Position numbers and translations under genes: made by a program. Source: Flammeovirgaceae bacterium 311 (GTDB lineage: Bacteria; Bacteroidota; Bacteroidia; Cytophagales; Cyclobacteriaceae). From it: 64,000 bases of DNA. The stretch spans positions 4,555,001 through 4,619,000 of the forward strand of contig CP004371.1 of assembly GCA_000597885.1 (NCBI GenBank). The letters are read 5' to 3'. This document shows, one piece after another, positions 25,336 to 31,993 of the stretch (position 1 is its first letter; each line of letters begins with the position of its first letter). The notes under the pieces are model-generated. The model saw nothing but the letters and a program-made list of their open reading frames with translations, searched no databases and was not told the DNA's origin.

Positions 25336-27159
25336 CTAGATTGTTTCGGGCAGTGTGTGGGTGCGGCCCTTGTTTACTTCTTTCAGGTACTCCATGAGTG
25401 GTTCAAAATAGCTGAGCATGGCTTTTGCGCTTAAGTCTTCGCCGGTTGTTTCCTTTAATAGCTCACGCCAGTCGCGGGTAGCGCCAGGGCGCAGCAGATC
25501 TTTCAAAAAGTCGCCAACTTCTTCTTTTCCATAGTAGTTGGTGCTGCGCGGGTCCTGGTTAAGAATGTTACGGGCTACATGGTCGTGCAGCTGGAACAGC
25601 AGTGCATAGCTGATGGCATAGTCGTAGTATTGGGCGGCATCGTTATTAATGTGGGTTTTAGAAGCGGCATCGGTATACTCTTCGCCGCGCACAGCGGGCG
25701 GCACCATACCCTGGTACTTTTCTGCCAGCTCCCACCAGCGCTTGTTGAGCTGGTCTGCAGGTAAATCATTTGCATACAGATCCAGCTCAAAATGTGTCAT
25801 TACCCCTGCAGAGAAGGGGATGAACACAATGTAGTTGAGGGCTTCTTTGAGCAGTGCCTGTGTTTCATTGGTTTTTGTGTTGGGGTCAATAAGCCCCAGC
25901 CCCGCAATAAAAGGCTTTTGCATGGCGGCAAGTCCCATCATGCTGCCAACAGCCTCATGAAAGGCGCGGTTAGCCCCACCACGCAGCAGCGGGGGTACAT
26001 CCTGGTTGGTGTAGCTGATGTAGTAGTAAATGTGCCCCAGTTCATGGTGGGTGGTTTCGTACCATTCTTCATTTGGTATTACACTCTGCAGGGCGCGCAC
26101 ATCTTCTTCAAGATCCATATGCCAGGCCGAGGCATGGTTGTTTTTTTTATAGGCTGCATCGGCAGGAGCGGGGTAAAGGCTGCTTTTTTCCCAGAAAGAC
26201 TGCGGCAGCGGCTGAAAGCCCAGGCTGATGTAGAAGCGTTCGGCCTGTTTTACCAGCCATTCAGGCCCTTTTTCCTCGAGTACAGGCGCCAGGTTTATGC
26301 CTTCTACCTCTACCATAGGGCTCCAGTCCTGCCCCCAGCGGTTTGGTAGCCAGTGGGCGGGCAGCATGCGGGGTACCTCCTGCACGCCATAGCGATTGGC
26401 CAGCTCGTAGCGGGCATAGGTGTGCAGCTCCCGGTACAGGGGCCAGATGTCGCGTATCAGCTGCTGGTTTAACGCAATCATTTCCTCGCTCGTCATGCCA
26501 TAGTCGCTCACCTGGTAGGCAAAGTAGTTATCATAGCCCAGCGCTTCTACAGTTTGGTTACGCAAGCGGCGCAGGTTCAGCAGACCTTCACGCAGGTTGG
26601 TGCCAACCTCTTTAGAGGCGGTCCAGGCATTCAGGCGGCTGTCCAGGTTCATGGTGCCCTTCAGGATGTTGTCGATGTCGTTGGTACTTACCGGCTGGTT
26701 ATCCACCTTAAAATCGTAGCCAAATAAGAGTTCGGTTTGCTGTGCCTCTGCTTTGATACGTTCATTTACCAGAGCCTCAACCGTAGCGGGGTTGTTGGCT
26801 GCATTGTACAGGATTGTTTGCAGCTGTTTTACCTGCAGCGGGCGCAGCAGTGCCTGCTGCTCCAGCAGTTCCCTTGCTTTTTCTATATTTTCGGTGCTGC
26901 CGGTAAAGCGGGCAAAAGCCTCGTTTGCCTGCTGTACATTCCAGGCGTTGGTGGTATCTCCCGGCACAATGCGGGTATTAGAGGCCCATTCGGCCTCGGC
27001 AGATCTGTAGTAAAGCTGTTTATATTCCCGGGTGTACTCGTCCAGGAATCGCTGTGCCTGCAACTGAACCTCACTCTCTGTTGTACTGGTTTCAGAAGGC
27101 GACTGGGAGCAGGCAAAGGAGCCGGCCGTCAGCGCGAGCAGTAGAAAAAATTTTTTCAT
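25336..27159 (-). CDS. M2-family (ACE-like) peptidyl-dipeptidase lipoprotein
   Basis: This 607-residue zinc metallopeptidase starts at MKKFFLLLALTAGSF with the lipobox cysteine right after (SFAC), so it is lipid-anchored in the envelope. The zinc motif is TTHHELGHIYYY, with the third ligand Glu in AFHEAVGSMM. Family members remove C-terminal dipeptides from oligopeptides. An upstream in-frame start at 27303 would add 48 residues before the signal and overlap the divergent amidoligase gene, so 27159 is preferred. Confidence 0.9.
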   Translation of the reverse strand: MKKFFLLLALTAGSFACSQSPSETSTTESEVQLQAQRFLDEYTREYKQLYYRSAEAEWASNTRIVPGDTTNAWNVQQANEAFARFTGSTENIEKARELLEQQALLRPLQVKQLQTILYNAANNPATVEALVNERIKAEAQQTELLFGYDFKVDNQPVSTNDIDNILKGTMNLDSRLNAWTASKEVGTNLREGLLNLRRLRNQTVEALGYDNYFAYQVSDYGMTSEEMIALNQQLIRDIWPLYRELHTYARYELANRYGVQEVPRMLPAHWLPNRWGQDWSPMVEVEGINLAPVLEEKGPEWLVKQAERFYISLGFQPLPQSFWEKSSLYPAPADAAYKKNNHASAWHMDLEEDVRALQSVIPNEEWYETTHHELGHIYYYISYTNQDVPPLLRGGANRAFHEAVGSMMGLAAMQKPFIAGLGLIDPNTKTNETQALLKEALNYIVFIPFSAGVMTHFELDLYANDLPADQLNKRWWELAEKYQGMVPPAVRGEEYTDAASKTHINNDAAQYYDYAISYALLFQLHDHVARNILNQDPRSTNYYGKEEVGDFLKDLLRPGATRDWRELLKETTGEDLSAKAMLSYFEPLMEYLKEVNKGRTHTLPETI

Positions 27160-27288
27160 AAGTAATGGGTAAATCCTAATATTGCTAATGTACAGAAAAC
27201 TACTTAAAGGTTTAACAGTTGCAACTCTTGAGAAGGGATGGCGTATTTTTAAGTACTTTCTGTTGGCAGAGGCGAATTTTTTAAAATT

Positions 27289-28299
27289 ATGGGATTCATA
27301 CAACCTAAAAGATTACATAACTCCAAAGGGGAGGTTAGAAAAGTAGGAATTGAGATAGAGTTTGGTAATGTGCCGATTGAAAAAACGGCCAATATTATCA
27401 TAGAACTCTATGGCGGGCAGCTTAAGCGGGAAAATCGCTTTATGCAAAAGGTTGAGAATACCAGCCTGGGCGATTTTTCAATAGAAATGGATGCCCGCCT
27501 GCTTACGGAAAAAGCTTACCTGAAACCGCTGCAGAAGCTTAACATTGACATCAGTAAAATACAGATGGGCGATTCAAGCCTTGAATCGGGTCTGGAGGAT
27601 ATGCTGGAGGGCGTGGTAAGCCTGGTGGTACCCTATGAGATAGGTACGCCACCGGTGCCCATTACAGAGCTACATCAGCTGGAGCGCCTGCGGGAGAGCC
27701 TGTTCAGGCATGAGGCAAAAGGCACCCGTGCATTTCCTACCAATATTTTTGGAACTCATTTAAATCCCGAAATTCCGGATGAGGAGGCGGGTACTATTTT
27801 AAATTACCTGCGTGCTTTTCTGCTGGTCTATCCCTGGATGTTGCGCAGTGCGGAAATAGACCTTGCCCGCAGATTGTCTCCTTATATTGATCCCTTTCCG
27901 GACGCCTATGCAGAATTAATTCTGCAGCCGGATTATAAACCGGATATTGACAAGCTGATCGATGATTATCATAAACATAATCCCGACCGTAACCGGCCGC
28001 TGGATATGTACCCGCTTTTTGCCTATTTAAAAAAGGATAAGGTAGCACAATACGATGATATGGGTATTGTAAAAGAAAGACCCACCTTTCACTACAGACT
28101 ACCCAACAGCCAGATTGAAGAAGCAGACTGGTCGCTGGAAAAAGTATGGAATAATTGGGTGGTGATAGAAAACCTTGCCGAAGACAAAGAAAAACTAGAG
28201 GAATTGGCCAGCCAGTACTTAAGCATGAGAAAAGATACTTTCATTGGCTTTAATGGCAGATGGGCCAAACAAACAGATAAATGGCTATCATTAGAATAA
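27289..28299 (+). CDS. putative amidoligase (carboxylate-amine ligase, PF12224-type)
   Basis: This 336-residue protein has the family signature GIEIEF at residues 20-25 after a short basic N-terminus, followed by a helical and strand pattern consistent with the glutamine-synthetase-like amidoligase fold. A conserved histidine segment is FGTHLNPEIP near 150. These enzymes are predicted to join a carboxylate to an amine using ATP, for peptide tagging or unusual metabolites. The stop overlaps the start of the amidotransferase gene by 19 bases, a tight two-gene operon. The association of amidoligases with class-I glutamine amidotransferases was described by comparative genomics (Iyer and colleagues). 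The substrate is unknown. Confidence 0.75.
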   Translation: MGFIQPKRLHNSKGEVRKVGIEIEFGNVPIEKTANIIIELYGGQLKRENRFMQKVENTSLGDFSIEMDARLLTEKAYLKPLQKLNIDISKIQMGDSSLESGLEDMLEGVVSLVVPYEIGTPPVPITELHQLERLRESLFRHEAKGTRAFPTNIFGTHLNPEIPDEEAGTILNYLRAFLLVYPWMLRSAEIDLARRLSPYIDPFPDAYAELILQPDYKPDIDKLIDDYHKHNPDRNRPLDMYPLFAYLKKDKVAQYDDMGIVKERPTFHYRLPNSQIEEADWSLEKVWNNWVVIENLAEDKEKLEELASQYLSMRKDTFIGFNGRWAKQTDKWLSLE

Positions 28300-29219
28300 A
28301 CAGAACTACTCCTACAATTGGCGTAACCGGCCCCGACAGGGGCGGCGGTATGGCCTGGTTTTTTACTGCACTGGCCGTAAGGCTGGCCGGAGGAAAGCCG
28401 GTACGCATTACACCCTCGCGGCCACGAACTGCAGATGGTCTGCAGGCGCTCATCATTGGTGGTGGTGCCGACGTTGATCCGGACGCTTATCAGCAGGATC
28501 ATGTAGTGCAGGAGTATCTGAATCAAACACTGAATCATCCGCGTAAAACCTGGCTGCAGCGTATTGGCCGCTTTGCCCGCATGGCGTACTACCCGGCCCT
28601 GTTCTTTATGCGCAAGCTTTTGAGCCGCTCTAAAGGCAGAGGCTGGTCGCTCGATAAAGCCAGGGACCATCTGGAGTTTCAGCTTATAGACCAGGCAGTA
28701 AAAAAAGGGCTGCCTGTACTGGGTATATGCAGAGGTTCGCAGCTCATGAATGTCTATTTTGGCGGAACCCTTCACCAGGACATTAATACGTTTTATAGCG
28801 AGGAGCCAAATCCTTCCAGCGTATTTCCAGTTAAGAAAGTATATATAAAGAAGGGCAGCAGGCTGGCTGGCGTGGTCGGACAGCATCATCTCAGGGTAAA
28901 TGCCCTTCATAAACAGGCGGTTAAAGATCCGGGCACAGGAGTGGAAATAGTGGCCCGGGAACCAAATAAGGTGGTGCAGGGCATTGAGCTACCCGGGTCT
29001 CCTTTTATGATAGGCGTGCAGTGGCACCCGGAGTATTTGCCCCAGCGCAGGCAGCACCGCCGCATATTTAAAGCTATCATAGAAGCGGCCAAGAATGTTC
29101 AAAGCCAGATTGAAGCACCGGATATGCACGAAGCTTTGTCCAGCCCTGTTGCCCAAAGGCTGCAGGTACTGGAGACCAGTGAAGAGCCGGGAGCACTGGA
29201 GCAGGGTTACAATACTTAG
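28281..29219 (+). CDS. class-I glutamine amidotransferase / gamma-glutamyl-GABA hydrolase family (C26)
   Basis: This 312-residue protein has the triad of class-I amidotransferases: nucleophile C150 in LGICRGSQLMN, and H249 with E251 in GVQWHPEY. C26 hydrolases cleave gamma-glutamyl amides, as in PuuD. An insert between about 75 and 135, rich in basic residues, is larger than in compact family members. The start overlaps the amidoligase gene, so the two are translationally coupled. Together they could form and then trim gamma-glutamyl or other amide links, or supply ammonia; this is inference. Confidence 0.85.
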   Translation: MAIIRINRTTPTIGVTGPDRGGGMAWFFTALAVRLAGGKPVRITPSRPRTADGLQALIIGGGADVDPDAYQQDHVVQEYLNQTLNHPRKTWLQRIGRFARMAYYPALFFMRKLLSRSKGRGWSLDKARDHLEFQLIDQAVKKGLPVLGICRGSQLMNVYFGGTLHQDINTFYSEEPNPSSVFPVKKVYIKKGSRLAGVVGQHHLRVNALHKQAVKDPGTGVEIVAREPNKVVQGIELPGSPFMIGVQWHPEYLPQRRQHRRIFKAIIEAAKNVQSQIEAPDMHEALSSPVAQRLQVLETSEEPGALEQGYNT

Positions 29220-29290: not shown

Positions 29291-31993
29291 ATGAAACTCA
29301 ACATATTTGTTATACTGGCACTATCAGGCCTGTTCGCATGCACCCAAGTAGGTATGGAATCATCACAATCATTTTCAGATCGGGAACTTTATCAATCAGG
29401 TACTTTTACAGTTTATGGCGACAGGGTAACACAGGGTTTATACGAAGCTGTAGCGCTTACGCCTACCTCTATGATTTCTAACTACCAAAGCCCTGCTAAC
29501 GACAAGCACAGCCGCGGTATAAGTTTTAAGTTCAGTTTGAACGGAAAAGACAATGAACTGCCCGTGGGCGAAAACCATTTTATGGTGCTGTATCCGGAGC
29601 GTAGAGAGGTGGTGAGCCCGGTGATCACATTTGGCCAGCGCCATACCGATACTACATCGGTGCCTAAAGATAATTTTCTGGAGCCCAATACAGTTTTTCG
29701 CATCAGGCTGGATATGCGCCCGGTACTGCAGGAGTTTGAAGATCATGGGTTTTATACCGATTATGCCGGTAACCGGGTGTACAAGCAGGATTTTAAGGGT
29801 GTATATATAGCCGGAGATGCTGAACCACTAAGCTGGGATTTTGAGAACTTACCCTCCCGGGCCGGTATGCAGCTGACTGACACCCATGATAACGGGATTT
29901 ATGAAACTACCATTATTTTAAATCAGTATAGCCCCCAGGACTTTGTAGCACATCGCTGGGAGCTGAAGGAAGATATATCCAAATATCCTCAGTTCAGCTC
30001 TAACCTGCCACTTATTGATGCCCTGTATAACCTATCGCTGGAGGAGATTATACTGAATATTGAGAAAAACAAGACTTTCCGCACAGGAAAGGAATGGGAA
30101 GGCGTCTGGACCCGCGACATCAGCTATAGCCTTGTTTTAGGACTGGCGGCCATAGAACCGGAAATTTCCAGGAACAGCCTGATGGCAAAGGTCCGGAATG
30201 GCCGTATTATCCAGGATACCGGCACTGGCGGTTCCTGGCCGGTATCTACCGACCGTACCACCTGGGCACTGGCCGCCTGGGAGGTATATGCAGTAACCGG
30301 CGATGAGGGCTGGCTGCGGGAGGCTTACAATATTATTAAAAAGACGGTAGAGGAAGACCTGCAGGTTGCCTTTAACGAAGAAACAGGTTTGTTCAAGGGA
30401 GAATCCAGTTTTTTAGACTGGCGCATCCAGAGCTATCCGCGCTGGATGGGACCCGTGTCCATCTTTGTCAGTGAAAGCCTGGGTACCAATGTTGTGCATT
30501 ACGAAACTTACCGGATTTTAACCCGCATGGCCCAGATTTTGGGAGAGCCTGCAGCGCGTTGGCAGCAGGTGGCCGAAACTGTTAAAAAAGGAATTAATGA
30601 GCAGCTATGGGTGCCTGACAGGGGGTTCTACGGGCAGTTCTTATACGGCAATACCTACCTGGTGCAATCTCCCCGCGCCGAAACGCTGGGCGAAGCGCTG
30701 AGCATTCTCTATGGGGTAGCAGATGAGCAGCAGGCAGCTTCTGTTGTAAGCAGCATGCCGGTTACCAGGTTTGGGACTACCTCTATTTATCCGCAAATAC
30801 CTGATGTGCCTCCTTACCATAACCATGGTATATGGCCCTTTGTGCAGGCTTTCTGGAACTGGGCTGCAGCTGAGGTTAAAAACGAGCAGGCGCTCCAGCA
30901 TGGGTTGGGGGCATTGTACCGCTCAACTGCGCTCTTTCTTACCAATAAAGAAAATTTAGTAGCCAACAGCGGCGATTATAAAGGAACCGAAATAAACTCC
31001 GACCGCCAGTTATGGAGTGTGGCAGGTAACCTGGCCATGGTATACCGTATTTTTTATGGCATGCGCTTTGAGCCAGCGGGCCTCCGGCTAACACCAGCGG
31101 TACCTCAGGCTTATGCCGACAGCCGCACACTTAGTAATTTTCGCTACCGGAATGCCATACTTACCTTAGAGCTATCGGGCTGGGGAAACGAAATTGCAGA
31201 GGTGCTGCTGGATGGCGAGCGCCTGAAGGAAGCCCTGATACCTGCTGACCTGCAGGGCGAGCACCGGGTGGAGATCCGTTTGGCAAATAACAGCTTTAAC
31301 AGCCAGCCTTACAATCTTACCGCCAATCATACTTCTTTGCCTACCCCGCAGGTTCAGTTTAGCCAGCAAAGCCTCACCTGGATGCCTGTAGAAGGTGCAG
31401 TGGCTTACCAGGTATGGCGCAATGGCAGTATGGTAGAGCAGGTAGAAGAAGGCCCCTATAAACTTCCGGAATCTATGGATCAGTATGCAGAGTATATGGT
31501 GGCTGCTGTTGATTCTGCCGGATGGCCTTCTTATTTAAGTGAGCCGCTAAGTGTGGTAACACATGACCGTATTCAGCTGATTGAGGCCGAGCAGATTGTT
31601 CCTACTTCCAGTTTATCTTATGAAGGCTTTAGTGGCAAAGGTTTTATTGAGCTAACAAAAACGGATAATACCAGCCTAAGCTTTATGGTAGAAGCCCCCG
31701 CCGATGGGAAGTATTTGTTGGATTTGCACTTCAGCAACGGTAGCGGACCAGTCAATACAGATAATAAGGCAGCCATACGAAGCCTGTATGTTGGAGATAC
31801 TTATGCAGGTTCCCTGGTAATGCCTCAGCTGGGCCGTGACGAGTGGTCTAACTGGGCTTTCAGCAATCCCTTAAAAATAGAGCTGAAGCAGGGCAAAAAT
31901 GAGCTGCACCTGCGTTTTATGCCTTGGAATGAGAACATGAATGTAGAAGTAAACAGGGCAATGCTCGATTTTGTAAGGCTGATTCGTTTGTAA
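29291..31993 (+). CDS. lipoprotein glycosidase, (alpha/alpha)6-barrel type, with C-terminal CBM-like domain
   Basis: This 900-residue protein begins with a lipoprotein signal (FVILALSGLFAC). The N-terminal 230 residues are beta-rich. Residues about 250-620 form a six-hairpin glycosidase-like domain with GVWTRDISYS, SWPVSTDRTTWALAAWEVY and NHGIWPFVQAFWNWA segments, as in glucoamylase-like and GH63-like clans. The C-terminus (about 755-900) starts IQLIEAEQI and resembles a CBM6/35-type carbohydrate-binding module; an Ig/FN-like stretch lies between. It likely degrades an external polysaccharide at the cell surface. The exact GH family is not decided. Confidence 0.7.
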   Translation: MKLNIFVILALSGLFACTQVGMESSQSFSDRELYQSGTFTVYGDRVTQGLYEAVALTPTSMISNYQSPANDKHSRGISFKFSLNGKDNELPVGENHFMVLYPERREVVSPVITFGQRHTDTTSVPKDNFLEPNTVFRIRLDMRPVLQEFEDHGFYTDYAGNRVYKQDFKGVYIAGDAEPLSWDFENLPSRAGMQLTDTHDNGIYETTIILNQYSPQDFVAHRWELKEDISKYPQFSSNLPLIDALYNLSLEEIILNIEKNKTFRTGKEWEGVWTRDISYSLVLGLAAIEPEISRNSLMAKVRNGRIIQDTGTGGSWPVSTDRTTWALAAWEVYAVTGDEGWLREAYNIIKKTVEEDLQVAFNEETGLFKGESSFLDWRIQSYPRWMGPVSIFVSESLGTNVVHYETYRILTRMAQILGEPAARWQQVAETVKKGINEQLWVPDRGFYGQFLYGNTYLVQSPRAETLGEALSILYGVADEQQAASVVSSMPVTRFGTTSIYPQIPDVPPYHNHGIWPFVQAFWNWAAAEVKNEQALQHGLGALYRSTALFLTNKENLVANSGDYKGTEINSDRQLWSVAGNLAMVYRIFYGMRFEPAGLRLTPAVPQAYADSRTLSNFRYRNAILTLELSGWGNEIAEVLLDGERLKEALIPADLQGEHRVEIRLANNSFNSQPYNLTANHTSLPTPQVQFSQQSLTWMPVEGAVAYQVWRNGSMVEQVEEGPYKLPESMDQYAEYMVAAVDSAGWPSYLSEPLSVVTHDRIQLIEAEQIVPTSSLSYEGFSGKGFIELTKTDNTSLSFMVEAPADGKYLLDLHFSNGSGPVNTDNKAAIRSLYVGDTYAGSLVMPQLGRDEWSNWAFSNPLKIELKQGKNELHLRFMPWNENMNVEVNRAMLDFVRLIRL

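Follow-up and report, generated by a model that had tools for sequence, protein, structure and literature searches.

A predicted amidoligase and a class-I amidotransferase protein with a clade-specific insert as a putative two-gene module of Bacteroidota

Within a stretch of 64,000 nt (the window), the gene of a predicted amidoligase overlaps that of a peptidase C26/class-I glutamine amidotransferase (GATase) protein. In Bacteroidota, the two genes occur together almost without exception, and the second protein has an insert in front of its catalytic Cys. We tentatively regard the two proteins, called AM and GA here, as one module, in which a ligase would make a gamma-glutamyl amide and a gamma-glutamyl hydrolase would cut it, and we give this reading slightly less than an even chance. 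An orphan pair of predicted enzymes thereby becomes a module of two co-travelling genes that can be tested; its features are as follows.

27289 to 28299, + strand: AM, Amidoligase_2 (PF12224), 336 aa (ORF, Pfam profile, alignment of 24 homologues)
28281 to 29219, + strand: GA, peptidase C26/class-I GATase protein (PF07722), 312 aa (ORF, Pfam profile, solved relatives)
28281 to 28299, + strand: end of AM and start of GA, 19 shared bases (both ORFs)
28533 to 28646, + strand: GA insert, approximately residues 85 to 122, amphipathic here, with Pro105 and the invariant Arg111 (alignment, hydropathy)
28728 to 28730, + strand: predicted catalytic Cys150 of GA, in GICRG (sequence, homologues)
29025 to 29033, + strand: His249 to Glu251 of GA, within WHPEY (sequence, homologues)

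The preliminary description had proposed that the gene at 27289 codes for an amidoligase, and a check for placement outside that family put it inside: PF12224 matched AM in full length with 196.7 bits (cut-off 22; profile positions 2 to 245 of 245; Pfam scan). Up to an E-value of 0.01, AM matched no further family of Pfam and none of NCBIfam, and the Pfam scan returned no Gln-synt_C match. The GIEIEF motif contains E22 and E24, and both residues belong to the columns that are invariant in the 24 aligned homologues, which also include G43, G61, D68, P115, E117, N159, Y227, R234, D239, R264, H268, R270, W281 and E294. The acidic ExE strand (E22 and E24) and the downstream H268, R270 and E294, conserved in PF12224, presumably have a catalytic role. 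Comparisons of AM with GCS2 and glutamine synthetase (GS) alignments using hhalign gave non-significant E-values of 0.11 to 0.36 (0.51 to 0.63 for controls against GA). No solved structure related to AM was found, and its AlphaFold2 model, computed from an alignment of only 2 sequences, reached a pLDDT of 41. AM is the single PF12224 match in its own genome of 6.67 Mb, and the AM of Cesiribacter sp. SM1 is 88% identical to it in the best segment. Searches of phage records (tblastn, E 1e-3) returned no AM match, none of the viral contigs encodes an AM relative, and PADLOC reported nothing.

GA matched PF07722 with 147.1 bits (cut-off 20.5), only profile positions 85 to 219 of 219 being covered, and PF00117 with 59 bits in the Pfam scan. 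Its earlier assignment as a C26/class-I amidotransferase with C150, H249 and E251 was thus borne out, and this triad is unchanged in all 33 paired homologues. In profile comparisons, the closest solved relative was Lin1909 (134.6 bits), for which no function is named. It was followed by 7d4r, 7d50 and 7d53 (104 to 109 bits), labelled 'probable glutamine amidotransferase' by their depositors and which we take to be the gamma-glutamylpolyamine hydrolase SpuA, and by the gamma-glutamyl-GABA hydrolase PuuD (6vtv, 93.4 bits). The glutaminase subunits of GMP synthases scored approximately 45 bits, below the C26 proteins (93 to 135 bits). With the equivalog model of PuuD, GA obtained 66.4 bits, far under the cut-off of 266. 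The AlphaFold2 model of GA, also from an alignment of only 2 sequences, had a pLDDT of 33.

PF12224 was searched for in 59 genomes of relatives, 395 of the phylum and 390 of the order, the own genome being counted in each set, and 7, 33 and 38 of them, respectively, were positive. We distinguished long-type matches of ~810 to 835 bases, to which AM belongs, from short-type matches of ~565 to 635 bases; partial matches (in G128, G408 and G538, and two fragments in G513) were assigned to neither class. Long-type AMs were found in 31 phylum genomes (own included), 4 relatives and 15 order genomes, 50 in all, and GA adjoins AM in 49 of them. This count comprises 33 of 35 long-type loci judged by whole ORFs, a 34th (L075), in which GA is cut by the contig end and still visible, and 15 of 15 new loci of the order. 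Adjacency of the two genes is therefore not peculiar to this genome. The sole exception is G144 (locus L078), where AM stands by itself and a distant C26 protein is encoded on another contig. Conversely, a GA profile search of the 395 phylum genomes (E 1e-20, up to 6 candidates scored per genome) yielded full-length matches of 330 to 425 bits in 30 genomes, all 30 of which have a long-type AM. The next match had 137 bits and covered the C-terminal part only. The hypergeometric P of 3e-44 for this co-occurrence takes no account of how the 31 genomes (11 genera) are related and was not used as evidence. AM and GA trees of 48 sequences each agree in four deep groups (17, 3, 8 and 20 rows), every one of which is supported in both trees; the branching within groups differs in places. 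Based on the co-occurrence and the shared deep groups, the pair looks inherited as a unit.

The 19-base overlap reported earlier for the window is real and is not a singularity of this genome, since 31 of 33 measured pairs overlap and the other two are gapped by 21 and 49 bases, with ORF starts chosen mechanically. In the window, the overlap would couple the translation of AM and GA. The surroundings of the pair in the window are the following.

25336 to 27303, − strand: M2 peptidase, angiotensin-converting-enzyme-like (Pfam), lipoprotein-like if the start is ATG 27159
27160 to 27288, no strand: intergenic stretch, possibly a divergent promoter region if the M2 gene starts at ATG 27159 and not at the mechanically chosen TTG 27303 (gene starts)
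29291 to 31993, + strand: protein related to six-hairpin glycosidases (Pfam), its start lipoprotein-like, 71 bp downstream of GA

Neither of these directly flanking genes codes for an ATP-grasp protein (Pfam scan) or a transporter, in agreement with the preliminary description. We clustered the neighbours of the pair in 35 loci and scanned representatives only against Pfam. No third gene is an immediate neighbour of the pair in two or more of the four deep groups, and the recurring neighbours reflect within-genus synteny or are members of large families. The six-hairpin glycosidase gene adjoins the pair in all three genomes examined of the window's genus (L064 to L066) and in none of the 32 other clustered loci; in L066, the M2 peptidase relative is broken into two ORFs. 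In L045, L048, L050, L061 and L082, all of genus g148, AM is preceded at a distance of 29 to 78 nt by a penicillin acylase gene of the same orientation (identified in one locus by a Pfam scan and in four by clustering), and in L077 a HipA-like gene shares 4 bases with AM. The penicillin acylase, the HipA-like gene and the glycosidase were set aside as module members, each being lineage-specific.

All 49 AM-paired GAs of Bacteroidota have an insert of 33 to 44 residues in front of the catalytic Cys. The GG.D (oxyanion segment) and G.CRG motifs are separated by 77 to 88 residues in 33 of 33 paired GAs and by 85 to 88 residues in the 15 further GAs of the order, the insert of L075 being read by eye. 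Unpaired C26 proteins have spacings of 43 to 49 residues and no insert (19 measurable of 20); this sample represents 20 of 111 places, namely 19 of the 21 best-scoring ones and that of G144. Five alphaproteobacterial relatives, three of them AM-paired, have a spacing of 44 and no insert, and profile alignments, whose N-terminal parts score weakly, leave no room for it in PuuD, Lin1909 and 7d4r/7d50/7d53. Within the insert, Arg111 is kept in 33 of 33 aligned GAs and Pro105 in 30.

Outside Cytophagales, the insert contains the most hydrophobic 17-residue stretch of GA in 28 of 28 proteins (means of 1.68 to 2.70), which makes a membrane-dipping helix plausible there. In Cytophagales, the order of the window, membrane insertion is unsupported, because hydrophobicity peaks in the insert in just 3 of 20 GAs and the best 17-residue mean of the window insert is 0.70. 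The latter segment is basic and amphipathic, and a docking arm, or a helix lying on the surface, suits it better than membrane dipping. Whatever the chemistry, the insert of GA might be a docking arm, in contact with AM or a second GA and not with the membrane, a real possibility although we lean slightly against it. Its presence in all AM-paired Bacteroidota GAs and in 0 of 19 measurable unpaired C26 proteins, the conservation of Arg111 and Pro105, and the hydrophobicity of the Cytophagales inserts, mostly too weak for membrane entry (17 of 20), all point in this direction. Against docking stand the 3 of 3 AM-paired alphaproteobacterial GAs that lack the insert, and its strong hydrophobicity in 28 of 28 GAs outside Cytophagales.

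The pairing itself is not new: Iyer and colleagues reportedly predicted in 2009 that PF12224 proteins pair with a GATase-like thiol peptidase, which the Pfam description of PF12224 presumably states as well. The Bacteroidota insert is new here. Within the open-licence literature searched, neither the insert nor the near-obligate co-occurrence seems to have been described, and the matches listed included no studied Bacteroidota AM-GA pair, insert or substrate. AM matches were also found in 11 plasmid records, of which 9 were examined (8 of these annotated). GA adjoins AM in three of the nine plasmid stretches, all from Rhodobacterales (GA-model search, up to 6 kb of flank). These three distinct examples have the same two families adjacent, like the Amidoligase_2/GATase pairs of Proteobacteria. 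Their AMs are 31 to 37% identical to that of the window, and their GAs lack the insert, unlike Bacteroidota GAs. In the six other stretches (Rhodovastum, two Microvirga, two Azospirillum and Indioceanicola), the GA model had no match within up to 6 kb of flank. Thus, based on these six stretches and G144, AM does not always need GA.

From the families, catalytic residues, co-occurrence, overlap and insert described above, we read a chemistry, its direction, a membrane contact and a substrate type as follows. AM, predicted to be glutamine-synthetase-like and dependent on ATP and Mg, would link an amine to a carboxylate, which is most likely that at the gamma position of glutamate. With its intact Cys-His-Glu triad, GA would hydrolyse the gamma-glutamyl amide made by AM or a related one, and the pair would set the level of this amide or pass a protected amine along. 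The insert would be an arm acquired by Bacteroidota GAs, immediately in front of the segment with the active-site Cys. In members outside Cytophagales, this hydrophobic arm would dip into the membrane and place the reaction there, which would favour an amine-bearing lipid, a lipid-linked intermediate or a hydrophobic amine. The Cytophagales arm would either dock on AM or, at most, lie along the surface of the membrane. A more specific version is in our view improbable: a membrane-docked Bacteroidota module in which a membrane lipid, or an intermediate linked to a lipid, receives a gamma-glutamyl group on its amine from AM and loses it through GA. If true, such membrane-docked editing would be an undescribed reversible lipid modification. 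The clade-specific insert gives a concrete handle on the substrate, through complex formation, the membrane fraction and lipid extracts. The preliminary description had suggested a peptide, a cell-wall fragment or a polyamine as target, and the evidence singles out none of these.

A gamma-glutamylcyclotransferase is no ammonia donor. We favour making and cutting over ammonia donation because of the C26-type relatives of GA and because PF12224 genes are found beside those of enzymes acting on gamma-glutamyl bonds. In Tn6164, an amidoligase gene lies beside an AIG2/GGCT-like gene (PMC3485107), and Phage-ZRK32 has an amidoligase, a GATase, a glutathione synthase and a gamma-glutamylcyclotransferase (PMC10945688). 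The partners of the short PF12224 class are weak evidence, as this class is remote from AM. A precedent for the proposed chemistry is AtdA1/AtdA2, by which gamma-glutamylanilide is made and then hydrolysed (PMC11335346); a gamma-glutamylanilide synthase with a GAT-like hydrolase also figures in a review (PMC4539516). According to the former source, AtdA1/AtdA2 and NpaA1/NpaA2 are GS-like ligases and GAT-like hydrolases encoded side by side, like AM and GA; they differ from the latter in that Gln-synt_C does not match AM and neither gene flanking the AM-GA pair codes for a dioxygenase. Thus, the earlier proposal that such pairs build and trim amides is partly upheld, by the C26 relatives including PuuD and by the analogy with aniline degradation, and it has a GA that donates ammonia as its rival.

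PuuA/PuuD and SpuI/SpuA are polyamine gamma-glutamylation pathways. The AM-GA pair resembles them in that PuuD (6vtv) and 7d4r/7d50/7d53 are among the solved relatives of GA. It differs in that AM, with PF12224 as its sole Pfam match, is not a classical GS-family ligase like PuuA, and that GA falls under the PuuD cut-off and has an insert for which PuuD and 7d4r have no room in the profile alignments, weak as these are at the N-terminus. Several observations count against our make-and-cut reading: the weak hydrophobicity of the insert in most Cytophagales GAs, the 3 of 3 AM-paired alphaproteobacterial GAs without insert, the absence across deep groups of a third gene hinting at the substrate, the near-strict, overlapping pairing, which also fits a two-subunit amidotransferase, and a GS fold of AM that neither the hhalign comparisons nor the model of low pLDDT confirmed.

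In such an enzyme, GA would hydrolyse glutamine and channel ammonia to AM, which would amidate a carboxylate, as GatD-MurT does on lipid II. We consider this possible, though less likely than making and cutting. The gene overlap, the near-perfect co-occurrence and the class-I GATase match of GA with its triad agree with it, and a lipid-linked substrate would also suit a hydrophobic GA arm. However, GA is closer to C26 proteins, PuuD included, than to glutaminase subunits, AM occurs without GA in G144 and six of nine alphaproteobacterial plasmid stretches, and a GATase subunit is not known to us for any enzyme of the GS fold. MurT/GatD, the lipid II amidotransferase, is itself made of a ligase and a class-I GATase and shares this logic with the pair, but AM and GA have no Mur ligase domain, and the Pfam matches of GA are PF07722 and PF00117. 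Lastly, pupylation-like peptide tagging of proteins is very improbable: the family of AM is said to include peptide ligases (a 2009 prediction by Iyer), but among the neighbours clustered in 35 loci, representatives of which were scanned against Pfam, no gene of a small tag, a protease or an ATP-grasp protein was shared by long-type pairs of different groups, the window pair lacks the adjacent ATP-grasp gene of ATP-grasp/GS tagging systems, and a conserved small partner was found beside the short PF12224 class only.

The short class was considered as a source of AM orthologues and rejected, as none of the 15 loci examined matches the AM or GA model at E 1e-8; 8 further short matches from the order search are outside that count. 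Two short-type amidoligases match phage amidoligase families. A conserved protein of ~78 aa is encoded directly downstream of the short amidoligase in 14 of the 15 loci (L157 to L169 and L012) and is missing in L013. Two examples, located with a profile model, are given below.

L157, 2260 to 2490, + strand: ~78 aa protein
L161, 1101 to 1334, − strand: ~78 aa protein

The model was built from 7 loci and gave 7 independent matches (E 1e-17 to 4e-28) and none in the 50 long-type loci. Five members had no Pfam match over the cut-off, and four had no PHROG match. This protein could be a tag, a substrate or a subunit. Another arrangement was found on a plasmid of Phenylobacterium zucineum HLK1 (L096, 2662 to 4765), which codes for a C26 protein with 37% identity to GA and no insert. 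An ATP-grasp gene lies 4 bp upstream of it, in the place of the amidoligase, an apparent swap of ligase type beside a C26 protein.
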